Source: Tricholomella constricta
Lineage: Eukaryota > Basidiomycota > Agaricomycetes > Agaricales > Lyophyllaceae
Assembly: GCA_013368375.1 (NCBI GenBank)
Contig: JAACJP010000041.1
Span: 310,001 to 374,000, forward strand
Length of the DNA: 64,000 bases
Reading direction: 5' to 3'
Positions 33,021-50,840 of the stretch are shown one piece after another. Each line of letters begins with the position of its first letter. Positions within the stretch are counted from its first letter, which is position 1. The notes below the pieces were generated by a model that made no database searches, had not been told where the DNA came from, and saw only the letters and a list, made by a program, of their open reading frames with translations. Made by a program: the position numbers and the translations under genes.

Positions 33021-34066
33021 TGATGAGCACCGTCCAGCGCTGTACACTGAACCAACCCATTCTACGGATATCTACCGTTGCGCCACGACGAACACGGTCC
33101 CAAATGCGACCAAAGCGCTAAACCGACCGACTGACAATACGACCGACCGACCGACAATACGACCAAACGACCGACGCACCGACCAAGAGACAAAGTAACT
33201 TGGAACGCCAGTTCTCCTCTCTGGGCGCGCGGAGCACGGAACGCCGTATAACCTGTCAACGACCGCGCACGTTGGTATGCCAAGGTCTCAACCTGGCAAC
33301 AACCAAACCCGATTTGAAATGATCCTAGGAAACGCCGTTGCCCAGCAGTCACAGGAAGGATCCGGCCGTACCACGGAGCTCCGCACCCAAGAGCCACTAC
33401 CGATCGCAAAGCCACCACCGATCATACATCCGACCCGATGCCGCGAGCCGATCAAAAGCCCCTCTGCCGAGCCAAAGAGCGCCACACTCTCTAAAAAAAG
33501 CGTCGCGCGGTACCAAGCTTGGCGGCGCTTCTCCCAATAAACCAGTAAAACACCTGCCTCGCCGGCTCGCGCGAGGCGAGTCGGTCGTATTGTATAAAAA
33601 CATACCCATGTATTACCTACTTCCCCCAGTGAAGTACAGCCCGTATTTTCCCTCACACTCAGAGTGAATAGCTCGAAACCGTCGTCTCTGTCGTCTCTGC
33701 ACCGTCCTCATCGTATAAACCGTCGCCACTGTCGTAAATCTCGTAACTGCCGTCTCTGCCGCCTCGTACTCGTCGCCCGAACCCGTGAGTTCTCCGTATT
33801 AACCTCGTTCGTCTCGTTGTCGCACGACCGACACCTAAAGTCGCGTCGCCGACCCGTTCCACTCGGGAAACGTCGTGTTCCATCGCCCCCGTCGCGTTGT
33901 TGTCGGTTCGACTAACTACGAGTCGGATCGTCTCTTACCTTCGTCAAACAACCCTTACAAGCCCTGCACACTCGCGTGTTTGGGAACTTTTAACACTTCT
34001 CGCCCCCCATAGTTGTTAGTTGTTTTGTTGTTGTGCACAGCACCTACAGGCCTTCTAGCTCTATCA
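33021..34066 (+). repeat. 5' LTR of element 4
   Basis: 1046-bp direct repeat. It contains a short tandem repeat of CGACCGACYGACAATA units at about 33122-33172 and a TATA box at 33593-33599. The last bases, CTCTATCA, mirror the first, TGAT. Confidence 0.96.
33593..33599 (+). promoter_or_regulatory. TATA box in element 4 LTR
   Basis: TATAAAA after a GC-rich stretch, with no ATG-rich coding in the following 400 bases; the likely core promoter for genomic RNA. The same site recurs at 45304-45310 in the 3' LTR. Confidence 0.55.
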
Positions 34067-34069
34067 TTC

Positions 34070-34087
34070 TGGAGCCCACCGCGAGGG
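34070..34087 (+). promoter_or_regulatory. Primer-binding site of element 4
   Basis: TGGAGCCCACCGCGAGGG starts three bases after the 5' LTR with the diagnostic TGG (complement of the tRNA CCA end). Its complement, ending ...GTGGGCTCCA, would be the 3' end of the primer tRNA. The tRNA identity was not determined. Confidence 0.75.
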
Positions 34088-34206
34088 TTTTAAAAGCCAC
34101 CGCCGAACACGCAACCTCATTCCTCTTGTTCATAAAAACCTACGACTCGTCGACCATTCCACCCGCAACCCGACAAGAAGCTAAAACCCGAACCCTCCGT
34201 GCCGAA

Positions 34207-36855
34207 ATGCGCGCTGCTCTCGGACAAGCCGACACCGACTCAGAGTCGCTCTCCCCGTTCTTCCGCTCAGTAACCCCACACCGCGCGATCCATAACAACC
34301 TCAGCCCGCTCTTCTATAGCCCTTCGTCGACACTACCGTCGCCTACCCCGACCGATCAAACACCGATCCCCGAACCAACCGCGCAACCCGACCTAGCTTT
34401 CGACCCCTTTGCGTCGGAACCTCCTACCACCGATCAAGGAGTTGAATTTAGACTCCCCTATCTATCGCCCGCGACCCCAGAAATCTCAGATTCTTCTTCA
34501 CCGTCGTATTCCCCCTCCCCGTCCCCTATCCCGAAACCAATACCATCTAGCATGGCACAACCACCAATCATTATAAAGCCGATGCCCGCACGAGGACAAA
34601 GCTCGGCGCCGACGTTCGTGCCCGAACGCGCGCGTGAACTGCGCCGATATTTCTCGGACTTAAATCATCTCTTCATCGAGTGTAACGTCGTAGATGAACA
34701 AGAGAAGAAAACGCACACTACGCGATACACCGACATCGATACCGCGGATCTGTGGGAGCAACTTGACGAGTTCGCAGTCGGTACCACATATGATGATTGG
34801 CGAAAAGCAATAATGGCGCTTTACCCAGGCGCAAGCGAAGAAAGAAAGTATTCAATGGCCGACCTCGACTACCTGATCAGAGAACGACACCGACTCGGGA
34901 TCCAGTCGAATAGTGACCTCGGGGAATATTACCGACAGTTCCTTTCTGTTACCCAGTTCCTTGTCAGCAAAAACCGACTTTCGATAAACGAACACGACCG
35001 CCAATTCCGTCGCGCGTTCCAGTCCGATCTATGGTCAAAGATCCATCGCAGGCTCGAGATCCTAAACCCGAACCACCATCCCGACGACCCCTACGCCACG
35101 GAAACCGTTCGCGCTGCGGCCGAACATATCCTCCACGGAACAAACGCCGGCCAACGACAGGAAGCGCCATCGGGCGCGCCCACACAAATTACGATCGCGC
35201 CAAGCGGGTCGTTAACGGGCGCGACCAAGTCGCCTAGCACGGGACAGCCCCTCAAGTTGGAGGAGCTCTACGAAAGAATCAACCTGTTGGAACAACATAT
35301 CCAACGCTTAGGACAAGACAAAGGAGGCGACGGCGGCCGACCGAATCAGTCACCTAATGACAACTGCCACTTCTGCGGTGGTGAAGGACACTATATTCCT
35401 AACTGTCCCATACATCAAACATACGCGACCAAAGGACGCTGCCGACGAACCGACGACAACAAGATAGGCCTAGCAAGCGGCGCGCGCATACCGGCGGGAA
35501 CTCCAGGTCGATACATAAAAGACAAGTTAGACGAGTGGCACAGACGCAACCCCGGCCAAATGGCGACAGGACAGCTATCAGCGAATGCGAACCCGACCGA
35601 AAGCATGATGTTGGAAATACTACAGTTTAACGACGTCACCGACCATGACCTGAAAATCGAGGATCGCATGATCGTGTTGGAACGAGAACTCAACACCCTG
35701 CGCGCAAGGAAAGAGGTGTTCGACGGCGTAGAACTTATTAGCCGCGCACCGCAAAAACGACCCGTCACGGTCGAAACCGTTCCAGACGCCGACCAACCAA
35801 GGATCGCACCAGTCAACAAGTCAGCGCCCGCGTCGCAGCCCGCCTCGGACGCGACGAAAGGCCAAGCCAAGGCTCCCCCGCCACCGTCCAACATACCTCT
35901 GATCCCCAGTACCAAGACCGACGCCACAGGCAATGCCCGCAACCAGACTCCAGTACACCCTTTCTCTAACATTCCTGAGAACCGATACATCCCCCCTACC
36001 ACGCGAAACTTAGCCGCCACGGAGAAGGCGAAAACCGACAGTGCGTACCGCACACAAGCGCCCATTACAGATCCAACCAAATCAACGACTCTATTCGAAC
36101 GCGCACTCGACGCCACCATACCGGTCACAGTTCGGGAACTCTGCGGGGTAGCGCCAGAGGTTCGCGGAAAGTTTAGGGAAGCTAATACACCGAAGCGTAT
36201 CGTCGCCGGCAACCTCACAACAGTATACCAAGAAGTCCCCACGTCGGCGTTCATTGAGGAACTCGACGCACTACCTTGCGAATCCAACAACGACAACGCG
36301 ACGCCACCGCCCGGAGCGCTAGTCACCGGCGACATCTACGACACGTATTACCAGACACTACTACCTGGCGAGCATCCGGACCGACTGATCGTCGCAATGG
36401 AATCGCATGCACTCAGATCGATCATGATAATGGTCGACGCGAGAGAACAGATAGAAAGCATTGTCGACAGCGGGTGTCAGATCATAGCCATGTCGGAAGA
36501 AGTTTGCCATGGACTAGGGGTCAAATACGACCCAACTATAGTGCTGCAGATGCAATCAGCAAACGGAACAACCGACCCGTCGCTCGGTCTAGCACGAAAC
36601 GTACCTTGTACGATAGGAGAGGTCACGCTCTACCTCCAGATGCACGTCATTCGCAATCCTGCATACGATATACTCCTCGGCCGCCCGTTCGACGTACTTA
36701 CTTGCTCTAACGTGAAAACGAGATCCGCCGACGATACGATCATAACCATCACCGACCCGAACACCCGAGAGGTCATCGCGATACCGACCTTCGCGCGCGG
36801 ACAACGTCGCCGCCCCAAGACCGACGTAAATTTTCGTATACTCTCGAGGAAATAA
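34207..36855 (+). CDS. gag-pro: Gag-protease polyprotein of element 4
   Basis: The frame is open from within the LTR, but the first ATG in it is at 34207 (MRAALGQADTD), giving 882 aa. The N-terminus is Pro/Ser-rich. A Gag core lies around residues 150-330 (LRRYFSDLNHLFIEC, YDDWRKAIMALYPGA). A CCHC zinc knuckle, CHFCGGEGHYIPNCP, lies near 35370-35410. A long linker is followed by the aspartic protease with SIVDSGCQIIAMSEEV near 36460-36505 and YDILLGRPFDVL near 36665-36700. It forms the particle and cleaves the polyprotein. The frame ends with TAA at 36853-36855, inside the loop of the frameshift stem, so Gag-Pol is made by -1 slippage. No lesions. Confidence 0.93.
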   Translation: MRAALGQADTDSESLSPFFRSVTPHRAIHNNLSPLFYSPSSTLPSPTPTDQTPIPEPTAQPDLAFDPFASEPPTTDQGVEFRLPYLSPATPEISDSSSPSYSPSPSPIPKPIPSSMAQPPIIIKPMPARGQSSAPTFVPERARELRRYFSDLNHLFIECNVVDEQEKKTHTTRYTDIDTADLWEQLDEFAVGTTYDDWRKAIMALYPGASEERKYSMADLDYLIRERHRLGIQSNSDLGEYYRQFLSVTQFLVSKNRLSINEHDRQFRRAFQSDLWSKIHRRLEILNPNHHPDDPYATETVRAAAEHILHGTNAGQRQEAPSGAPTQITIAPSGSLTGATKSPSTGQPLKLEELYERINLLEQHIQRLGQDKGGDGGRPNQSPNDNCHFCGGEGHYIPNCPIHQTYATKGRCRRTDDNKIGLASGARIPAGTPGRYIKDKLDEWHRRNPGQMATGQLSANANPTESMMLEILQFNDVTDHDLKIEDRMIVLERELNTLRARKEVFDGVELISRAPQKRPVTVETVPDADQPRIAPVNKSAPASQPASDATKGQAKAPPPPSNIPLIPSTKTDATGNARNQTPVHPFSNIPENRYIPPTTRNLAATEKAKTDSAYRTQAPITDPTKSTTLFERALDATIPVTVRELCGVAPEVRGKFREANTPKRIVAGNLTTVYQEVPTSAFIEELDALPCESNNDNATPPPGALVTGDIYDTYYQTLLPGEHPDRLIVAMESHALRSIMIMVDAREQIESIVDSGCQIIAMSEEVCHGLGVKYDPTIVLQMQSANGTTDPSLGLARNVPCTIGEVTLYLQMHVIRNPAYDILLGRPFDVLTCSNVKTRSADDTIITITDPNTREVIAIPTFARGQRRRPKTDVNFRILSRK

Positions 36856-36890
36856 GTCGAGATCACGGCGATCTTGCACTCCTCCTCGAG
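36828..36890 (+). promoter_or_regulatory. -1 ribosomal frameshift signal (slippery heptamer plus stem-loop)
   Basis: The heptamer A AAT TTT (36828-36834) is in the correct phase of the gag-pro frame (codons GTA AAT TTT), fitting the X XXY YYZ rule. Eight bases later comes CTCGAGGA (36843-36850), perfectly complementary to TCCTCGAG (36883-36890). The gag stop lies in the 32-base loop, which itself contains a GATC...GATC pair. The -1 frame is open from here to 40598. Confidence 0.85.
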
Positions 36891-39800
36891 TACGACCCAC
36901 TAAGCTATACCCCGACTGTCCTTTCTTTCTGCGAACTACCAACCGAATTTAATAGCAACGCCACCTACGACGCGCAACTAGCCTCACTCTACGTCGCGGC
37001 ATCCGAACTAACCACACCAGCAATCGCCGACCAATCCGTTAATACCAGCTCTACCCCTCTTGAACGAACGACCCTCTGCACTATTTTACCGAACAACGAG
37101 CGCCATAGTGAACGCCACACCCAATCCCTGACCAACGCCGCCACCGACGCCTTCGTTGTGAAAATCAAAGGCGTACAAACCAAAAAGAAGTACAAACCAG
37201 TAGCGCAAAAAGTGCGATCGATCATAGCGAGCTGTCCCGACCACTTCCGAATCGAACGCAAAATATTAGGCGATCCTCTCGCCAACATGCCGACCTTGGT
37301 TCCTAACCCGCCACCTTTTCAACCCACAGGCCGCTACACCCTAGAACGAAAGAAAGACCTAGACCGCGAACACCCGGACTTCCTAACACCCGCCGAACGC
37401 GCCATTATGCACGACCTCATGTGTAAACAGAACCTCGCGTTCGCATGGGACGATTCCGAGCGCGGTAGTTTTCGGCCGGATTTCTTTCCCCCCATCGACA
37501 TACCGGTTGTGGCGCACACGCCTTGGATCGAGCGCAATATCCCCATACCACCTGGCATCTACGAAGAAGTTTGCGACATTATCAAAACTAAGCTCGCCGC
37601 TGGCGTTTACGAACCGTCCAACTCCAGCTACCGGTCACGTTGGTTTTGCACTCTGAAAAAGAATGGCAAGTTCCGCCTCGTCCACAGCCTCGAACCGCTC
37701 AACCGAGTAACCATCCGACACTCGGGTGTCACTCCAATACCAGACCATGTAGCTGAACAATTCGCTGGTCGAATTTGTGGCGCAATGTTAGACCTGTTTG
37801 TCGGCTACGACGAACGGCTAATCGCACCATCGTCGCGCGACCTTACCACTTTCCAGACACCTTTCGGCGCGTTACGCCTAGTCACCTTACCCATGGGCTG
37901 GACCAACTCCGTCCCAATCTTCCACGACGACGTCACTCACATCCTACAACCGGAGATCCCGGACTATACACTGCCTTATATCGATGACGCGGCTATAAAG
38001 GGACCAGCAACTTGGTACCCCGACCCGGACACAGGACTGCCGAAAACACACCCCGACAATGCCAACGTACGATTCGCGATCTGGGAATTCTTCAACGATG
38101 TCAATCGAATCCTTCAGCGCATGAAGTACTGCGGAGGCACCTTCTCTGGCAAGAAGCTGGTTTTATGCGCCCCGGAATTTAAAGTCCTCGGACACGTCTG
38201 CACGCCCGACGGCCGCATACCCGACGTGGACCGGCTCACTTTGCTGCGTAATTGGAAGTCGTGCGCCACCCTATCGGAATTGCGCGCGTTCTTAGGAACG
38301 GTCGGCGTGCTCAGGATATTCGTCAAGAACTTTGCTCATCGTGCACACCACCTCGTAAAACTGACTCGCAAGGATGCCGTCTTCGAGTTCGGACCCGACC
38401 AAATCGCGGCACAGCGCGACATAGTCGAAGCGATCGCAGAAGCTAAACCCCTCGTACCCATCGACTACACCTCGGACGACCCAGTTATCCTGGCCGTCGA
38501 CACTTCACACATCGCAGTCGGATTCTACCTCTGTCAAGCCGACCCCGTCGATCGGAAACGACGCAGATACAATCGGTTCGGTTCCATCACACTGAATGAT
38601 CGCGAATCACGATTCTCCCAACCCAAACTCGAATTTTATGGTCTATTCCGGGCGCTTGGCGCGCTACGACTGTACGTTATAGGCGTCCGCAACCTAGTCG
38701 TCGAAGTCGACGCGCGCTACATTAAAGGCATGCTCTCCAACCCCGACATCCAACCGTCAGCTTCCATAAACCGGTGGATCGTATCTGTTCTCATGTTCCA
38801 CTTCGAGCTGGTCCACGTTAAAGGCACGTTCCACGGACCCGACGGTTTATCCCGTCGCCCGCGACAACCCGGCGACCCGGCCGACAACTACAGCGCAGAA
38901 GAAGCCGACTTCGAGGATTGGGTCGACCGGATGCAAGGACTCATGCACATTATTCAACCGCTGCCACGACCGCCGTCGCCGTTGCATGTGGGCCAGATCT
39001 TCGCTATGGCTCAGATCTCAAGTAAGGAGGAGATGGTGGCAGTATACACTGACGCGGTACCACCAGACTCAACGACTCACGAACTCGCAGCCGACCCCCC
39101 ACGACAACCCAGAATCCGTACCGACGACGATACAGGAATAACCGACCCAAATGCGAATTCGACCGACTGGTCATACGACGACGTGCCCAGAACCGACGTC
39201 GCTAAAGCCCAAGACCAACGCATAGACGCTGTTAGACAATGGTTGACCAACCTAGAACGACCAGAAGGCATGTCCGATGATCAATACGCCACTTTCATTC
39301 GATACGCCACCGGATTCTTCCTAGACGGAACACGACTCTGGAGAAGAGACAGCCAAGGCGCACATAAACTAGTCGCCCGCCCCAGCGCGCGATTAGAGAT
39401 TCTACGATCGGTCCATGACAACCTCGGACACAAACGCTTCTACGCGACACGCGCAACCTTGCTTGAACGCTTCTGGTGGCCTAATGTTCAGGCCGACGTC
39501 GTGTGGTTCGTAAAGACATGTCACATATGCCAGATCCAGCAAACAACCAAGGTCCTGATCCCCCCGGTCGTTGCGACACCTGCGCCACTATTCGCGAAAA
39601 TGTACATCGACACTATGCACCTACCGGCGTCGAACGGTTTTAAATACATCGTACAAGGGCGCTGCTCCTTGATTCACTTTCCTGAATGGCGCGCGCTCCG
39701 AAAGGAAAACAGTCGCACCCTCGGCGATTGGATGTATGAAGACATCATCTGCCGGTGGGGCGGACTGCGCGAAATCGTAACCGACAACGGTCCAGCTTTC

Positions 39801-40598
39801 ATCAAAGCCGCCGAACACCTCACAAAGAAATACCACATACACAATATTCGAATCTCGGGCTATAACTCTAGAGCCAACGGGCTCGTCGAGCGATCCCATT
39901 TCGACGTACGACAATCCCTTTTCAAAGCCGCCGACGGAAACGAAAGCAAATGGTCACAATCCGCGTATTCAGTCTTCTGGGCTGAACGCGTCACGATCCG
40001 CAAGCGAATGGGATGCTCTCCCTATTACGCCGCGACAGGAACCCAACCCCTTCTCCCACTCGACATCGTCGAAGCCACGTACCTACAACCACCGCCCGAC
40101 TCTATCCTGTCCTCCACCGACCTCTTGACACGACGCGCGATCGCCCTGCAGAAACGAGCGACCGACCTAGAACGACTGCATTCAGACGTATACGCAGCGC
40201 GACGACAAGCGGCGATTCGCTTCGAACTTAAACACGCCAAAACTTTGCGCGACTACAATTTTAAACGCGGAGACCTCATCCTCATGCGCAACACGAAAAT
40301 CGAGAAGTCGCTCAACCGCAAAATGAGGTCTAGATACCTAGGACCACTCGTCGTGATCTCACGCAACCGCGGAGGCGCCTACATCCTCTGCGAACTGGAT
40401 GGCACCGTCTTACACCGGCCTGTAGCAGCATTCCGACTCACCCCCTACTTCGCACGAACCAATATCCTCCTACCCGATAGCGCTCTGGACATAGACACCA
40501 GGCGACTCAGAGAACTAGAGGCAACAATGATCACTGACGACGAAGACCGACCCGAAGTCGTAGGCGACGACTCCGATTCGGAAGAAGAGCAAAACTAA
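36834..40598 (+). CDS. pol: Pol of element 4 (RT, RNase H, integrase), expressed by -1 frameshift
   Basis: After slippage at 36834 the frame is open for 1254 codons without a stop. The first ATG-independent stretch (36834-37157) has no start codon of its own, supporting frameshift expression. RT: FRLVHSLEPLNRV, GAMLDLFVGYDERLI with the first catalytic Asp, LVTLPMGWTNSVPIF, and PYIDDAAIKGP with the YIDD pair. RNase H: ILAVDTSHIAVGFYL and VVEVDARYIKGML. Integrase: an HHCC finger (HDNLGHKRFY...CHICQIQQ), the core DDE set (YIDTMHLP, VTDNGPAFI, ANGLVERSHFD) and a C-terminal GPY/F-like segment (RYLGPLVVISRNRGG). There is no chromodomain; the end is acidic. Enzymes for cDNA synthesis and insertion; all catalytic residues are present. 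Confidence 0.94.
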   Translation, partial: SYTLEEISRDHGDLALLLEYDPLSYTPTVLSFCELPTEFNSNATYDAQLASLYVAASELTTPAIADQSVNTSSTPLERTTLCTILPNNERHSERHTQSLTNAATDAFVVKIKGVQTKKKYKPVAQKVRSIIASCPDHFRIERKILGDPLANMPTLVPNPPPFQPTGRYTLERKKDLDREHPDFLTPAERAIMHDLMCKQNLAFAWDDSERGSFRPDFFPPIDIPVVAHTPWIERNIPIPPGIYEEVCDIIKTKLAAGVYEPSNSSYRSRWFCTLKKNGKFRLVHSLEPLNRVTIRHSGVTPIPDHVAEQFAGRICGAMLDLFVGYDERLIAPSSRDLTTFQTPFGALRLVTLPMGWTNSVPIFHDDVTHILQPEIPDYTLPYIDDAAIKGPATWYPDPDTGLPKTHPDNANVRFAIWEFFNDVNRILQRMKYCGGTFSGKKLVLCAPEFKVLGHVCTPDGRIPDVDRLTLLRNWKSCATLSELRAFLGTVGVLRIFVKNFAHRAHHLVKLTRKDAVFEFGPDQIAAQRDIVEAIAEAKPLVPIDYTSDDPVILAVDTSHIAVGFYLCQADPVDRKRRRYNRFGSITLNDRESRFSQPKLEFYGLFRALGALRLYVIGVRNLVVEVDARYIKGMLSNPDIQPSASINRWIVSVLMFHFELVHVKGTFHGPDGLSRRPRQPGDPADNYSAEEADFEDWVDRMQGLMHIIQPLPRPPSPLHVGQIFAMAQISSKEEMVAVYTDAVPPDSTTHELAADPPRQPRIRTDDDTGITDPNANSTDWSYDDVPRTDVAKAQDQRIDAVRQWLTNLERPEGMSDDQYATFIRYATGFFLDGTRLWRRDSQGAHKLVARPSARLEILRSVHDNLGHKRFYATRATLLERFWWPNVQADVVWFVKTCHICQIQQTTKVLIPPVVATPAPLFAKMYIDTMHLPASNGFKYIVQGRCSLIHFPEWRALRKENSRTLGDWMYEDIICRWGGLREIVTDNGPAFIKAAEHLTKKYHIHNIRISGYNSRANGLVERSHFDVRQSLFKAADGNESKWSQSAYSVFWAERVTIRKRMGCSPYYAATGTQPLLPLDIVEATYLQPPPDSILSSTDLLTRRAIALQKRATDLERLHSDVYAARRQAAIRFELKHAKTLRDYNFKRGDLILMRNTKIEKSLNRKMRSRYLGPLVVISRNRGGAYILCELDGTVLHRPVAAFRLTPYFARTNILLPDSALDIDTRRLRELEATMITDDEDRPEVVGDDSDSEEEQN
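39017..39033 (+). promoter_or_regulatory. Possible central polypurine tract in element 4 pol
   Basis: CTCAAGTAAGGAGGAGA lies between the RNase H and integrase coding parts. It repeats, apart from the first base, the sequence TTCAAGTAAGGAGGAGA that abuts the 3' LTR (44715-44731). A second internal copy is at 43052-43068. Confidence 0.45.
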
Positions 40599-40993
40599 TC
40601 GCCATCCTGCGAAACCGTATACCCTTTCTTTTAATCAGCACCTTTCTCACCGACACACCCCGTTCGACCGACCGAATATACGGACGGCCTATGCAAACCC
40701 TCTTTTTTTTCTTTTTCAGTTCCGACCTATTACTGACCATCCGTCGGGTGCCCGATTCCTTAGGGTCAGAATTCACAACACTCCACTCAATCTCTTTCTC
40801 AGGCTCTGCCGCGACTTAGCACAACAAAACGGGCGCAAAGCCGAACACTGGTATTAGATTATATGGCGGTCCCACTTAGGAACCGCCCAGACGCAGACCA
40901 CATCAAAAAAGAAAATATATAAACAAAGGTCGGGCGCGCGACCAAGATACCAAGCGCGCTCCGACCAACCGACACCCCCCCCACGACGCTCGT

Positions 40994-42880
40994 TCACCCC
41001 ACCACTACATCCCCGCCCTCGCCCTCGTCGCCTTGTTCCCCGTCTACGTCGCCCTCGCCCTCACCCTCAGCATCCTCATCGTCGGTGCTAACGGCACTCC
41101 CCTCACTAGACTCGGACCCGGCCGCCATCTCATCCACCACCTCCGAGCGCCGCTCTCTCAGCATCCTCAACACGTCCACCGTACCTTCAACTTGCAAGTA
41201 GATTTGTTGCAGCGACCACTGTGTTATCTCTTGTTGGGACTGCAGGACCTGCGCTTCCTGCACCAGGGTCCGGAGGAAGGCGTTGCGAGAAAAGAGGGCG
41301 CGGTCCACATCGGCGAGGCTGAAGTTGTCGATCATCGAAGTCGACGCCATGTAGCCCAAGCCCTCGAGGTCCTCGTTCCGAAGCAAGGCTTCGGCTTGAG
41401 GAAGCGATCCCTGAAGCAAGAAGCTCGTGCCCATTCCAGCAGAGCCGGCAGACTGGAACATCGCGAGGCGGTGTGCGACCGCAGCCAGTTCGCGCTCGCG
41501 CTCCCGGGGATCCGCCATGAACGGTGGGGGAGAGCGGTGCACCGGGTACATGGGCGCAACGTGGGGCTTTTCCTCCTCCACATCCTCAACGACCGCGCGC
41601 GAGATGTGTTGGCGCCGCGATCGCGAACCCGATGCCTTCGGAACGACGAGGGGGACGCCGTCGCGCGTCGTCTCGCACTTTTTGGCATGTATCTTGCAGA
41701 GCGCGCAAGGACTGACGCCGGGCTTCTGCAGACAATCGACGCCTGCGTCCACGCACCGATCGCACTAGTGGAAGAGTCAGCGCTGACAGACGCCAAGACC
41801 CGACCGATGACCTACCGCCACATCGCGCACCAAGTGGTGAGGACACTCCTTCTTGAAGTCCTCGAGGCGCCCGAGCCACTTGTCGGTCGTGCGCCGCTTC
41901 CTTTTGCCCTTCCCTAACTCCTCCTCGGGGACCTCCACGACCGACCCTTCCCCTTCATCTACGACGTCGCGCTTGCGCTTACGACTCGAAGTCGTCGCCT
42001 CGTCGGACCCAGTGGCGGCAGGCGTCGCACCTACCAAACTAGTTAGGGGCAGACCACTCACAGCGCTAAAGATAGGCCCTGATCGGAAGGCGGACTCACG
42101 CGTACGAAGCGATCACGAAGTGGACGGCGCAGCCTGTTCAAAAAAAAAAAAAAAATGTGTTAGCAACCGGGGGAGGACAAAATCGCGTGAGATACGCACG
42201 TCGGCTACAGCGCCTTTGCCAGCACGCGACCCGCCGCCAACCGACATACGAGGCACAAAAATAGGAGGCCGCGAGGATTTGCCTTTCCCCTGGGGCGATG
42301 GCGCCACGAGAACGCCGGACGATGCCCCCACGACCGGCGGCGGGATTGCGCCCACGCTACCGTGCCCCTGCCCCGCCTCCGCCACCAATTCCGTGTCACG
42401 CACTTCGATGCCGCCAACATCCGACCGGGGACCCTGCTCGACCGGCGATTCCCCCCCAAGCCCGCCAGATACGACCGGTGGCGCATTTCCGGCGCCTCGA
42501 GATGTTCCTGATTGAAGACGTCGTTCGCGGCGTCGACGGGTATACTCGTCCTGAAGACGGACAAGCCCAAGTCGGTCATCTGCATACCAGAAGTCGGAAA
42601 ACGGACGCACCTCGGGCTCCAGATCCGCGAATTTCTCCGACCACTCCCCGTCGTCCTTGATGCGCGCCCATATTTGGGACAACGCCTCCTGCTCCTCACG
42701 CCATTCCAAACGCCCGGGGCCCGCCTCTTGTTTCTGAAGCGCGGTCAAGCCGTCCCGAATATCCTCGAGCGCCTCGAAGTGCTCGGCGCGGGTGGCGTCG
42801 TCGGGGAGTTGACACCATCGAATGTAATCGGTGGTCAGATATCGGAGGACGCGCTTGAAGTCCGACACGACGGTGGTCAT
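40994..42880 (-). CDS. Antisense accessory gene 2 of element 4 (Zn2Cys6-like, coiled coil)
   Basis: Minus-strand spliced gene. Exon 1 is 42880-42611 (90 codons, ATG confirmed), then a 60-base intron. Exon 2 begins at 42550 (DEYTRRRRERR), is Gly/Pro-rich and runs to about 42205. Splicing between 42205 and 42030 is unresolved: there is a strong T-tract acceptor at 42137, and alternatives near 42066 and 42031. A further exon carries two basic nuclear-import-like patches (RKRKRD, KGKRKRR) and KWLGRLEDFKKE. A 51-base intron precedes the last exon (41764-40994, 256 codons). That exon starts with six cysteines spaced C-x2-C-x6-C-x8-C-x2-C-x6-C, compatible with a fungal Zn(II)2Cys6 cluster. It continues to RNEDLEGLGYM, a coiled coil and a very acidic tail. 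It looks like a nuclear regulator; the target is unknown. Paralogue: 43274-44573. Confidence 0.78.
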
Positions 42881-43273
42881 GTTGGTTGAACAAGAAACGA
42901 GAGGGAACCGAACAGGCAGCCGTCACTTAAAAACAAGAACCAGGACGCGCCACCAAATTTAGTTGCACCGCCACCAACATCTCACGCCACACACGCGCCA
43001 GTTCTAGAATTTTCTCGACTGGACTCCGGCCCGACTGGGGACAGTCGGCATTTCAAGTAAGGAGGAGACACGACCTGTGGGTTGAGCGGAAGCCGACGCC
43101 AATAAACCGACACCGCCGATGAGCAATGCGAACTAACATGCGCCGCTCGAAACGAAAAGTCCAGATTATAAAGAACGACCCAATTTTAGGGCCCGCACGA
43201 CAAAACGGGTATAGACGGAATACGCGACCGACAACGAGCGCAACCCGAACACAAACACACGACAAACCCGGAG

Positions 43274-44573
43274 TCAAGGCGACGAACCCTCGCCACCACC
43301 GTCGCGTACGCCACCATCGATACCGCTTCCACTGCCGCTGCCCCCACTTCTCGAGTTGTCCATCATAGACGCACCAACTAGCTCTGCACGACGGGCCTGA
43401 AGCAAGTCAAAGGCCGACGACGTGGACACGACCTGCTCGTAAAGCTGACGGACCGACGAACGCATAATCTCTTGGCGCGATTCAAGGACTTGAATTTCCT
43501 GGACCAAAGTACGCAAGAAAACGGTGCGCGCCGATAGCGCCCGATCTATATCCGCAAGACCGAACCGCGAAATCACCGACAACGGCTGGATGAAGCCCAG
43601 ACCGCGCAAATCTTCGTTACGGAGGAAGTCCTCAGGGCGAAACACCGGCCCTTGATAGAGGAGACCCGCGCCCCGGTCCGCCGAACCCGCAGAACGAGTC
43701 ACGACAAGGCGCTGAGCAGTTCTCGCCAGGTCGGGCGAACGGACCTCGACGAACAACGGAGGTGGCGCGCACGCGTCGCAAGAGCGTCCCTCTGCTAAGC
43801 AGGGCACAAACTGGTGCGGAGCCGGCGGAAACGACCCCACCTCGCTCGTCTCACATTGCTTCGACTGAATCTCGCAAACCGCACAAGCGTCAATCCCGTT
43901 GCGCTGAACACAGTCCAAAGCGTAGCCCACACAACGGTCACACTAGCCAACAAATGAGAGGAAGAACAAGATCGCACGAGAACCGATGACTTACCGCTTC
44001 GCTACGAGTGTAATGCTCCGGGTACTCCTCTTTAAACTCCTCAAGACGCTCCAGCCACAAATCGTGTCGCCTCCGCTGCGCCGCCAATACCGACTCCCCG
44101 GAGATCTCGACTACAGACTCTTCTTCGTCCCCGTCCCCAACCAAGGAGGCGCACGTACGATCCCGAACGACAGGCTCTGCCTCTTCTCCAGCAGAGGCGA
44201 CGCGAGCAGGCTCCCGAACGACCGCCCGTCGGCGAGGGTAGTCAGACTACCAACTAGCGCGTTAACCCTCGGGAACGATCAAGCCAATGAAGAGCGAACT
44301 TACACTCGGCTGTAGACCCGCGAACCGTCTGGACCATTCAGGGTCAGACGCGACCGTAGACCATACGTCGAGCAAAGCATATTCTTCGTCGCGCCACGCC
44401 CAGCGCCAGGGTTCAGCTGCTGGCGACCTAAGCACTTCGACGCCGTTTAACAAATATTGCAGCACGCGAGTACGCTCGTAACGAGGCGAGTCGTCCGACA
44501 GCGACTGCCATTCCTCCCAGTCTCGTCCCAAATTGCGGAGAATACGATGAAGATCGACAGGAGGTCCCGACAT
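43274..44573 (-). CDS. Antisense accessory gene 1 of element 4 (Zn2Cys6-like, coiled coil)
   Basis: Three minus-strand exons, 44573-44304, 44246-43995 and 43942-43274, joined in phase 0, give 396 aa. Exon 1 (90 codons) starts MSGPPVDLHRILRNL and is the same length as exon 1 of the paralogue. Exon 2 carries SDYPRRRAVV and HDLWLERLEEFKEEYPEH. Exon 3 begins directly with CDRC and the spacing C-x2-C-x6-C-x8-C-x2-C-x6-C, identical to the paralogue, then RNEDLRGLGFI, LADIDRAL, FLRTLVQEIQVL and a Gly/Ser-rich tail. The usual basic residues between the second and third Cys of Gal4-type clusters are missing, so DNA binding is unproven. The ATG lies only 159 bases from the 3' LTR, so the LTR is the obvious antisense promoter. 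No lesions. Confidence 0.82.
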
Positions 44574-44693
44574 AACGATGGGAAAACAAACAAGAACCAG
44601 GAAATATATATGTCGCCAACGCGTCGGCACCGCCACTCGCTCCTATGTCCGCCCCTTTTTCCAAGGAGAACACCCCCTGACCAATGCGCGGGA

Positions 44694-44731
44694 CCGACTG
44701 AGGACAGTCGGTATTTCAAGTAAGGAGGAGA
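44694..44731 (+). promoter_or_regulatory. Stem-loop and polypurine tract before the 3' LTR of element 4
   Basis: CCGACTG (44694-44700) pairs with CAGTCGG (44705-44711) around a 4-base loop. It is followed by TTCAAGTAAGGAGGAGA, whose AAGGAGGAGA abuts the LTR and is the plus-strand primer. The same unit recurs at 43031-43068. Confidence 0.8.
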
Positions 44732-45777
44732 TGATGAGCACCGTCCAGCGCTGTACACTGAACCAACCCATTCTACGGATATCTACCGTTGCGCCACGAC
44801 GAACACGGTCCCAAATGCGACCAAAGCGCTAAACCGACCGACTGACAATACGACCGACCGACCGACAATACGACCAAACGACCGACGCACCGACCAAGAG
44901 ACAAAGTAACTTGGAACGCCAGTTCTCCTCTCTGGGCGCGCGGAGCACGGAACGCCGTATAACCTGTCAACGACCGCGCACGTTGGTATGCCAAGGTCTC
45001 AACCTGGCGACAACCAAACCCGATTTGAAATGATCCTAGGAAACGCCGTTGCCCAGCAGTCACAGGAAGGATCCGGCCGTACCACGGAGCTCCGCACCCA
45101 AGAGCCACTACCGATCGCAAAGCCACCACCGATCATACATCCGACCCGATGCCGCGAGCCGATCAAAAGCCCCTCTGCCGAGCCAAAGAGCGCCACACTC
45201 TCTAAAAAAAGCGTCGCGCGGTACCAAGCTTGGCGGCGCTTCTCCCAATAAACCAGTAAAACACCTGCCTCGCCGGCTCGCGCGAGGCGAGTCGGTCGTA
45301 TTGTATAAAAACATACCCATGTATTACCTACTTCCCCCAGTGAAGTACAGCCCGTATTTTCCCTCACACTCAGAGTGAATAGCTCGAAACCGTCGTCTCT
45401 GTCGTCTCTGCACCGTCCTCATCGTATAAACCGTCGCCACTGTCGTAAATCTCGTAACTGCCGTCTCTGCCGCCTCGTACTCGTCGCCCGAACCCGTGAG
45501 TTCTCCGTATTAACCTCGTTCGTCTCGTTGTCGCACGACCGACACCTAAAGTCGCGTCGCCGACCCGTTCCACTCGGGAAACGTCGTGTTCCATCGCCCC
45601 CGTCGCGTTGTTGTCGGTTCGACTAACTACGAGTCGGATCGTCTCTTACCTTCGTCAAACAACCCTTACAAGCCCTGCACACTCGCGTGTTTGGGAACTT
45701 TTAACACTTCTCGCCCCCCATAGTTGTTAGTTGTTTTGTTGTTGTGCACAGCACCTACAGGCCTTCTAGCTCTATCA
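44732..45777 (+). repeat. 3' LTR of element 4
   Basis: 1046 bp, matching 33021-34066 with one difference found (45009 G versus 33298 A). It is followed by CCGT. Confidence 0.96.
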
Positions 45778-48242: not shown

Positions 48243-48974
48243 TTATCCGAGGTGTCCGACAGCATTTTGACAACATTGAACAAGGTCTCTGAGATGTTTT
48301 CTTCGCATAATAGGACATTGACCTTTTGTAAATCTTATAGAACACGGATGACAACAAAGTGGTTCACCAATATTGTCAGGATCTAAATCCTCAGGTAGGG
48401 AAGTGGAAATTAAGTCTTCAAGAAAAGATATCAGTCGTGACTTGAAATCAGGATCCGCAAGGGCCTTTTGCTTCAATTCGTCTGGATGTAGTGCACCTTC
48501 CAGCCATATCAACATGTGGCAATGCAAAGTGCCTCGTCCTTGTGCTTCCACACATCCATAATATGCTTTAACACATCCGAAGATTCCTCCATCATCAGTT
48601 GAACCGTCTTTACCATATCCCAACAAACATTTGATAAATGCTTTCATATATAAATTGAAGAATTTTGCCGCTGCAACGGGATTACGTGCAACAATAAGAG
48701 ACTGCTCATAAAAGCTCAGACTTTCTTGTGGAATTAAGTTGTCAATGTCAATCTCTCCACCAGCAAGTAAGCGCACGATGGGATTGTACACGTCTGCAAA
48801 ATTTAGCGTCACAAAAAAACTTGGAGCACCTTTTGAGATGGTGGTGGATCTAATTTCATTTCGCATATTGACACGAGCTGCTGCAGAACCAGGAACATTG
48901 GAATTAATAACCCGAACATTTTCCATCAGACTATGGACTGAGATTCTCATCCGCTGACCGGGATGAAGGTACAT
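48243..48974 (-). pseudogene. Helitron Rep (helicase-like N-terminal) fragment
   Basis: A 243-codon minus-strand frame matches the replication-initiator part of fungal Helitron proteins. SFFVTLNFADVYNPIVRLL is the first conserved block. FGCVKAYYGCVEAQGRGTL followed by HCHMLIWLEG supplies the His-x-His (HUH) metal-binding motif used in rolling-circle nicking. A cysteine-bearing end (GEPLCCHPC) follows. The first codons are not an obvious start, and the downstream nicking-Tyr and SF1 helicase regions were not found, so this is a fragment. The order relative to the 31-kb fragment shows the two are not parts of one copy. Similarity judged by eye, but the HUH block is very characteristic. Confidence 0.85.
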
Positions 48975-48979
48975 TGGCA

Positions 48980-50840
48980 GTGTCGTACGAAGAACAGGTC
49001 AGGATTCAGATATCCAGTTTCCGTCCCAACATCGAGTATCGTGTCCAAGGGACCTGGAGGGTGATCGCCAATACATGGACAATTACCAACGGTGCCGAAG
49101 ACATGGAGAATGACAGGATGGAGTTTTTTGAACTTGCGCAAAGTGGACAAGTTTGGGTTCACGATGAACAGGAGGGGGATTCAGATGAATCGGAGAATAC
49201 AGGAGATTCGAAGGATTCGGAAGTTCGGAGGATTTGGAGGATTCAACGCAGCAATATGGCGTAACATGGAAAAATTTACAGTGTGCCAGGACTATGCACT
49301 ATACGCTTTTTGTAATGTGTACGGCGAAGTCTCAGATTGTCTGGTTGTCGTCCGTTTACGGACTTAAGTCCACGGACCGGTCATGTGAAAATCACGTGGA
49401 TGGACCGGTCGACTCGCATTAGTGGAAATTTGCGGTGAGGTATGACAGGACCCACTACTAAAGTAGCGGGAATATACCTTAGTTGTCTACTATCACATTC
49501 TGATGAGCGGACATATTCCTCACTCTATATATATTGTATACCTATACTTACCACATACTAGTTCACTATACACATCCTAGGTAATACACAGTTGTCTACC
49601 ATCACATTCTAATTTCTGACACTGAGCTTCGCTATACGCGTCCTAGGTCAAACACTCCCATAAGTCATAGTTGCCTCTGCAAGGACTTCATCTCACTCAT
49701 ATTCAACAGAGTCCTGGCAGATGTATTCTCTGCCATGTTCACTATCATGGTAAGTCATAGTTCTCTCTTGAGGAGCTTATTCTCACTTGAACTTAACAGT
49801 GTGGTGCTTTTTCTTCGTCAAAAAGCTCGGCAGATCTTGTTGTCAATCAATGCAGAAGGTAGCACTTCTTAAGTTATTCTATTTCCTCTGTTATGTTACC
49901 TATCTATGTACTACAACTTTGTATTTATTCTTGCAAGTACACCTGAGAGGGCAGAGAAGGGGAACAAATGAGTAGTACCAGGGTAGCGACCATTTCAGGT
50001 GGCACCGTGCTAAACTTGGGTTGGACTGGGTCCAGGCGCCGGATGGTCTCCACGCCATCAATCCTGGGTTGATCTTGCTTGTGGCAAGCTTGTGTTGCCC
50101 GTGGTCCAGACTGTGATCAACTCAGGCAACATTAAACCCAGGATCACCGCAATCTATCTCCCAGCTGTGTACCTATCTTATATGTGGTCACGTGTTGATC
50201 CGTACGATGAAGAAGGGGGCGGGGAGCCTTGGGGGAGCCGCCAGTAAGCGGCCGAGTGCAGCTACACTGAGTTGATGAAGACTTCGGAATTGTCAACCAA
50301 GGCTTATAGGCAAACTGTAGCCCAAATCAATGGCATCCACGCTGGACCCAGGTCAGGCTTGGAAGAAAGATGTTCCAGGTGACAGTGATAATCATTGATA
50401 CGTGGTGGAATGAGGCTTCAGTTGTATGATTAAGAATGACAGCATTACACGTAGACGTTCAATAACTTTAATTACTCAGAGGCAAGACAGAGAGAGAGTG
50501 GGAGTAGAACGCAATGTACAACGGTAGCAAAGAAAAAGGAATAACAACGGACCAGGTATCGTGTATTAATACAGTGTCACAGGAGCGAGTGCGCATCTAA
50601 ACAAGTCGCCATGAGACGATCAAGTGCGGATGTCGGGCATGACGTTTGCCGTCTTCTGCCGAGGGGAGACAATGGGAACAAAGTCCACCGTCGGGGTAGG
50701 GGAACATTGAGGTTACAAAGCACCACTGGCGGGGAATAATATATGAAACAAGGGGAATCAGCCAGGGAGGAGAGGCGTCTGGGATAGCAGGTTGAAAACT
50801 TCCGAGGTATGAGGTATGGGAGGAGTATGAGGGATATAAA
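48980..50840. other. Intergenic stretch upstream of the host island
   Basis: No gene recognised. 48975-49260 may include decayed upstream Helitron sequence. 49450-49800 is AT-rich with repeated words such as TTGTCTACYATCACATTCT (near 49479 and 49593). Around 50060-50160 the inverted pair ATCCTGGGTT/AACCCAGGAT occurs. The part next to 50845 is probably the 3' region of the G-alpha gene. Confidence 0.35.

Follow-up and report, generated by a model that had tools for sequence, protein, structure and literature searches.

Does a young retrotransposon of an agaric carry genes for its own control, written on the strand opposite gag-pol? The question is raised by a stretch of 64,000 nucleotides from Tricholomella constricta (GenBank assembly GCA_013368375.1, contig JAACJP010000041.1, positions 310,001 to 374,000, forward strand; hereafter the window, whose coordinates are used throughout). 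It contains a Ty3/Gypsy element with two tandem paralogous genes on the minus strand, between the end of pol (40598) and the 3′ long terminal repeat (LTR); gene 1 is the one next to the LTR, and the two together are called the cassette. The initial annotation, made from the letters alone, had taken them for the element's own pair of nuclear regulators. Of this claim, antisense coding was borne out: the comparison of copies supports both as protein-coding antisense genes under purifying selection, with conserved splice sites and tied to one pol lineage. For the nuclear role, the support is architectural, and the whole proposal, that the element carries its own pair of spliced antisense accessory genes for nuclear cysteine-cluster, coiled-coil regulators of itself, is in our judgment an even bet.

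Gene 1 was compared in 41 copies, that of the window and 40 more from the same genome (44.09 Mb, 118 contigs). Its predicted product has 396 residues, and both introns are phase 0 (Table 1). In 34 of the 41 copies, its frame runs uninterrupted from start to stop and both introns have GT-AG ends; divisibility of the exon lengths by three is part of this definition of an open gene, and the unselected count for that property is 35 of 41 (all three exons). Intron lengths vary irrespective of threes (56, 57, 60, and 61 nt for the first and 51, 52, 53, and 57 nt for the second, in open copies). Over the 30 loci with an assignable reverse transcriptase (RT), an open gene 1 accompanies a pol frame of 1295 residues in 18 of 19 copies and a shorter pol frame in 10 of 11, so that openness alone says little in copies this young. 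Related elements with these frames broken and gag-pol still open had been named beforehand as speaking against the annotation; this pattern was not found for gene 1 and was found in part for gene 2 (see below). In two of the copies, L009 and L036 (contig C61, ∼139–152 kb), the gene 1 ends point toward each other.

Gene 2 has the same ground plan, as had been described: an intron lies directly after a first exon of 90 codons, a second junction is common to both genes (donor GTAAGTCATCGG / GTAGGTCATCGG, acceptor CTAG), and the last exon begins with six cysteines, followed in the window copies by RNEDL.GLG and a long helix. Where exon 1 of gene 2 was located (39 copies), an ATG frame of 89–91 codons leads up to GT in 34. 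The middle exons were compared in 12 of the 39 copies with a located gene 2 last exon, and their model applies to the group of copies resembling that of the window; exon 3 is open in 10 of the 12, the window copy and L048 being interrupted, and in L039, intron 2 is apparently missing. The last exon is open in 13 of 19 copies with the 1295-residue pol frame and in 9 of 11 with shorter pol. Some copies with a broken gene 2 form close pairs on different contigs (L043, L044), which implies that a given copy may do without gene 2 or that gene 2 may act in trans.

The ratio of nonsynonymous to synonymous substitution rates (dN/dS) between copies, a check proposed in the initial annotation, was well below 1 in frame for both genes and near 1 in control frames. 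For gene 1, it was 0.31 when pooled (470 pairs) and 0.33, 0.33, and 0.29 by exon, compared with 0.91–1.50 in twelve control frames; three antisense frames that share the wobble positions of gene 1 gave 0.35–0.40, as expected. For gene 2, it was about 0.18 (0.16–0.22) in the last exon (120 pairs of 26 sequences after filtering by dS), 0.27 pooled and 0.19 as median in exon 1, and 0.30 in exon 3 versus 1.04–1.36 in the controls. Broken copies were excluded, as were pairs with small dS (<0.05 for gene 1; <0.03 for the first and last exons and exon 3 of gene 2) or large dS (>1.5 for the first and last exons of gene 2; >2 for exon 3). The control values near 1 led us to reject both chance open frames and coding on the sense strand. 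Over the last 200 codons of pol (four copies with stops, and others with short matches, excluded), dN/dS was 0.06, and that of gene 1 is about five times higher. The same data bear on the idea that the antisense RNA itself is the effector, forming double strands with gag-pol transcripts, and that the proteins matter little. Such regulation is discussed for plant retroelements in a review (PMC7264820), but selection on amino acids and conserved junctions require a protein function, and there is no overlap between gag-pol and the coding parts of the cassette, though the transcripts might run on into gag-pol; we regard this explanation as extremely improbable.

The cassette follows one type of pol. 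A match to it was found on the opposite strand, at most 13 kb downstream, for 68 of 80 RT matches with at least 60% identity, and near none of 14 distant RT matches (42–47% identity). These 94 rows were condensed from 109 RT matches, for which 104 of 794 candidates had been scored; cassette places are those among the matches listed, where strongly diverged cassettes would be missed, and the 12 close RT matches lacking one may belong to truncated or diverged elements. In distant members of the family (pol ∼94% identical, for example, on contig C7), the order of gene 1 and gene 2 is kept, and the last-exon matches, among those listed, are merely 31–55% identical. Both genes are coding frames antisense to gag-pol between pol and the 3′ LTR, and most copies of the family carry such conserved frames. 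Judged by its sequence, the cassette would thus belong with the known antisense open reading frames (ORFs) of LTR retrotransposons termed aORF-3R. Captured host genes traveling as passengers would account for the multi-exon structure, which is typical of host genes. Against such an origin, selection persists over many copies, the cassette follows one pol lineage, and no element-free host copy was identified (39 of 178 cassette matches had no listed RT, under the same scoring of RT candidates); passengers are, in our view, very improbable.

Although linked, pol, gene 1, and gene 2 do not always share a history. Among the 20 copies in which all three are open, the nearest relative of the window element is L047 by pol, L042 by gene 1, and L045 by gene 2, and among L009–L048, the three parts often differ in nearest relative. 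They agree in some groups (e.g., L019, L020, L022, and L034), and L009, excluded from the set of 20 for its frame-shifted gene 1, is near the window copy in all three. Median dS was 0.34 for pol, 0.25 for gene 1, and 1.68 for the last exon of gene 2 (183 of 190 pairs). As the value of gene 2 is far above that of pol, gene 2 exists as old, deeply split versions on younger backbones. This mosaic suggests recombination between elements, in which accessory genes are shuffled. Deeply diverged gene 2 versions on closer pol genes, together with the fivefold higher dN/dS of gene 1 relative to the end of pol, also fit a conflict with the host, in which the proteins would counter silencing (RNAi, heterochromatin, or repeat defense) rather than act on the element's own transcription. 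All pooled dN/dS values are, however, well below 1, neither Pfam nor the PDB sequences gave a match above threshold, whether to a suppressor or to anything else, and the palindrome described below would be left unexplained. An anti-silencing function is therefore quite unlikely.

What the proteins may do has to be read from their predicted architecture. Each starts with a domain of 90 residues that has invariant tryptophans; a middle part leads to the cysteine cluster, and the conserved motif RN.DL.GLG and a helix follow. Both last exons start with C-x2-C-x6-C-x8-C-x2-C-x6-C, the canonical Zn2Cys6 spacing, and over 38 last exons, five of the cysteines are invariant and the sixth nearly so. The predicted structure has a helix of ∼70 residues at 129–198 (mean predicted local distance difference test [pLDDT] 61; predicted template modeling score 0.33), and hydrophobicity peaks at a period of 3.5 in both proteins, from which a coiled-coil dimerization region after the cluster is predicted. 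The partners differ in charge. Three or more adjacent lysines or arginines occur in 24 of 29 last exons of gene 2, and the last 40 residues of gene 2 have a net charge of −11 to −19 in 27 of 29, versus −4 to +3 for gene 1 tails. Protein database searches at E ≤ 0.001 gave nothing for the spliced gene 1 product or the 38 last exons (∼8,000 scored candidates each), a negative that is weak because low-complexity words may fill the candidate lists and the exons may be predicted apart. No relatives were found in the scanned viral contigs and bacterial and archaeal genome contigs, and PDB-sequence searches gave no match with E below 0.03.

Upstream of both genes lies a block of 41 bp (93% identity between the two) that comprises a palindrome, a spacer, and a polypurine tract. 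The palindrome has 109 exact copies in the 44-Mb genome (backward control: 0). In 49 of 50 listed places out of the 109, an antisense exon 1 starts 121–417 nt downstream, and in 47 of those 49, the distance is 121–154 nt. With up to two mismatches allowed, 39 of the 41 loci have it upstream of gene 1 (L009 and L028 do not) and 40 upstream of gene 2 (all but L046); of these sites, one at gene 1 and nine at gene 2 have one or two mismatches. A TATA-like stretch is present ahead of gene 1 in all 13 representatives, a set that excludes L028, and absent in L024 and L028. Because of this stretch and the palindrome, antisense expression looks likelier from the genes' own upstream region than from the 3′ LTR, where the initial annotation had placed it. 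The internal duplicate of palindrome, spacer, and tract sits 1,663 bp inside the 3′ polypurine tract.

The proposal of a regulatory pair would connect these elements as follows. Splicing in the cell, to which the conserved GT-AG junctions point, would yield a pair of related proteins, each with a coiled coil and a cysteine cluster similar to Zn2Cys6. As nuclear homo- or heterodimers, they would act on the element's own DNA, with the palindrome upstream of the genes as the first candidate for a binding site or operator, and would set the level of their own antisense transcription and possibly of sense transcription too. Gene 2, with its basic stretches and acidic tail, may provide the activator-like partner, and gene 1, which lacks the acidic tail, a partner or brake. 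Introns could persist in a retroelement because the genes are antisense: the genomic RNA does not contain their splice signals, and it is not the spliced antisense mRNA that is reverse transcribed.

A number of observations weigh against this proposal, and those on the proteins are considered first. In the structure model, which contains no metal, pLDDT at the cysteines is 63–65. Among 34 open gene 1 products, 13 also have three adjacent lysines or arginines, and of the 29 tails of gene 2, 2 lack the acidic character, so that the contrast between the partners is a matter of degree. None of the 38 last exons matches PF00172 at E ≤ 1, and the Zn(II)2Cys6 membership claimed at first is unproven. 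Of 16 short fragments, 13 match this family at E ≤ 10 (best E 0.0052), that of gene 1 in the window reaching 13.1 bits, below the curated cut-off of 21 bits; a PF00172 search of the fungus's own genome lists 22 places at E ≤ 0.001, and the listed cassette places are not among them. In Gal4-type clusters, basic residues between the second and third cysteines contact DNA. Here, this stretch reads CVGYALDC or CVDAGVDC, and between the two cysteines (VGYALD, VDAGVD, and ADAAVD), there are no basic residues except for a single arginine in L035 (VRASQT). Gal4 itself has the order cluster, linker, coiled coil, and acidic region. The predicted proteins resemble the Gal4 type in this order and in cysteine spacing and differ by the additional N-terminal exon domain, the missing basic residues, and the weak Pfam scores.

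Other objections come from the DNA. Gene 2 is broken in the window copy itself by the stop in exon 3 (42113–42115), which overturns the earlier statement that both genes are undamaged, and of the 19 copies with the full pol frame, 6 have a broken gene 2 last exon or none. For the distant families (on contigs C7 and C18 and at the start of C2), the listed exact palindromes include one before gene 1 and none before gene 2, where these families may lack it. CCGAC/GTCGG, the core of the palindrome, reaches 12.4 per kb in the LTR, 9.5 in gag-pol, and 2.2 in the flanks (∼2-fold in gag-pol and 3-fold in the LTR relative to shuffled sequence); its enrichment was rejected as a sign of LTR targeting, as gag-pol is enriched too. 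Finally, palindrome and polypurine tract form one block, and the internal copy has retained the tract, so the palindrome may serve replication. The internal tract is, from its sequence, a possible second plus-strand start site, and palindrome and tract together could be a replication signal (an internal plus-strand primer with an adjacent hairpin), with the proteins aiding a step such as nuclear import or integration instead of transcription. Consistent with this, palindrome-ATTTCAAGTA-AGGAGGAGA recurs as a unit both at the LTR and internally, and the internal tract is kept despite the high median dS of the gene 2 last exon. Replication would not, however, need the tight distance between palindrome and start codon, and none of ten variant palindrome sites has a compensating change in the other arm. 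Weighing both sides, we consider a replication signal unlikely.

Within the proposal of a regulatory pair, a more specific version is conceivable, in which a self-recognizing pair reads the palindromic operator and the versions of gene 2 act like incompatibility groups. Elements with similar gag-pol would swap strongly diverged regulators by recombination and thereby escape each other's copy-number control, and the halves of the cysteine cluster may be in reverse order relative to Gal4-type clusters. In weak alignments (Pfam, Pho7, and profile–profile), the first half here (43829–43942 and 41651–41764) pairs with the canonical second half. The swapped order scored higher for three of four yeast clusters and lower for Lac9; of 200 shuffles, 7 to 57 reached the score in swapped order and 6 to 121 in natural order. 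None of eight half-cluster fragments alone gave a Pfam match, whereas both Gal4 halves do. Since in the distant families the palindrome is listed before gene 1 only, we marked this version down slightly, and it stands as a doubtful, decidedly improbable one. If true, it would give eukaryotic retroelements a counterpart to the immunity modules of plasmids or phages. Should the proteins bind the palindrome, self-regulation by antisense genes becomes directly testable, and the family is a compact test case, with two paralogues, dozens of copies with an open gene 1, selection, and a palindrome at near-fixed distance. Removal of the introns would directly report antisense transcription, and the apparently mosaic descent of pol and the two genes suggests that retroelements of this kind shuffle their accessory genes.

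Antisense genes of LTR retrotransposons are already known from several plant families and from Botrytis. The antisense gene brtn of Boty-like elements was reportedly described by Zhao et al in 2011. Its presence in these Ty3/Gypsy elements of Botrytis (PMC7264820, PMC8365987, PMC4227169, and PMC5987419) contradicts the initial view that no fungal counterpart had been described, and one of these papers counts Boty among the elements whose additional antisense gene sits between pol and the 3′ LTR (PMC7264820). Both cases are fungal LTR elements with an additional antisense gene; by description, not by sequence, the present one differs in its two tandem paralogues, several introns, cysteine cluster, and palindrome. 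In maize, gene23 of Grande encodes a nuclear protein and has a promoter in its own upstream region (PMC7264820). It resembles the present genes in its antisense position between pol and the 3′ LTR and in that promoter; in contrast, Grande is a plant element, and the nuclear location is reported for gene23 and predicted here. The same review, where it treats antisense genes of LTR retrotransposons, gives their functions as unknown (PMC7264820). Of plant Retand clusters, 97% are described as having antisense ORFs with TRP28, which is predicted to bind DNA (PMC11963269). The likeness lies in antisense ORFs throughout nearly all clusters of a lineage, with DNA binding predicted for those of Retand; TRP28 (PF04195), in contrast, is absent among the Pfam matches here. 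In the main text of two articles, on fungal LTR elements (PMC3248453) and fungal transposable elements (PMC4905642), the term "antisense" does not occur. In a search that left most subscription journals outside, no report was found of a basidiomycete element whose antisense genes are paired and spliced and encode a cysteine cluster. HBZ of human T-lymphotropic virus 1 is a spliced antisense nuclear coiled-coil regulator of the bZIP type, transcribed from the 3′ LTR. The genes described here would likewise encode spliced antisense nuclear coiled-coil regulators of a retroelement, but with a cysteine-based cluster in place of bZIP and, more likely, an internal promoter.

Table 1. Coordinates of the cassette, its upstream blocks, and the host element in the window.
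Feature	Start	End	Strand	Remark
Gene 1 exon 1	44304	44573	−	90 codons
Gene 1 intron 1	44247	44303	−	57 nt
Gene 1 exon 2	43995	44246	−	
Gene 1 intron 2	43943	43994	−	52 nt
Gene 1 last exon	43274	43942	−	six-cysteine cluster, coiled coil (predicted), stop
Gene 2 exon 1	42611	42880	−	90 codons
Gene 2 intron 1	42551	42610	−	
Gene 2 exon 2	42200	42550	−	variable
Gene 2 intron 2	42134	42199	−	without counterpart in gene 1
Gene 2 exon 3	41816	42133	−	basic RKRKRD and KGKRKRR stretches
In-frame stop in gene 2 exon 3	42113	42115	−	window copy
Gene 2 intron 3	41765	41815	−	GTAGGTCATCGG...CTAG
Gene 2 last exon	40994	41764	−	six-cysteine cluster, basic linker, coiled coil (predicted), acidic tail, stop
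Palindrome upstream of gene 1	44694	44711	.	CCGACTG-N4-CAGTCGG
Internal palindrome upstream of gene 2	43031	43048	.	CCGACTG-N4-CAGTCGG
Polypurine tract	44722	44731	+	AAGGAGGAGA, adjoining 3′ LTR
Internal polypurine tract copy	43059	43068	+	AAGGAGGAGA
TATA-like stretch	44605	44610	−	32–37 nt upstream of gene 1 ATG
5′ LTR	33021	34066	+	1046 bp; flanked by CCGT
3′ LTR	44732	45777	+	compared with 5′ LTR
gag/protease open frame	33994	36855	+	aspartyl protease matches, weak zinc knuckle
pol open frame	36711	40598	+	RNase H, integrase H2C2; RT region 37401–38600

The host element (33021–45777) is young, as had been stated: its LTRs are identical at 1045 of 1046 bases, have TG...CA ends, and the 4-bp repeat CCGT flanks the whole. 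RNase H precedes integrase in pol and an aspartic protease is present, as in Ty3/Gypsy elements. The RT Pfam domain was not matched in the window, and PF00078 is listed for some relatives. The protein database that yielded nothing at E ≤ 0.001 for the cassette products gave 1,372 relatives of the RT region, the best among those listed being 79% identical; two named relatives of pol come from Mycena chlorophos and Meripilus lineatus. The gag/protease and pol frames (33994–40598) differ in phase and share 145 bases, an arrangement that suggests that pol is produced by frameshifting. Downstream of the element, an open frame on the minus strand (48243–48998) contains the stretch GTLHCHMLIWLEG, which we take to resemble the helicase region of a Helitron.

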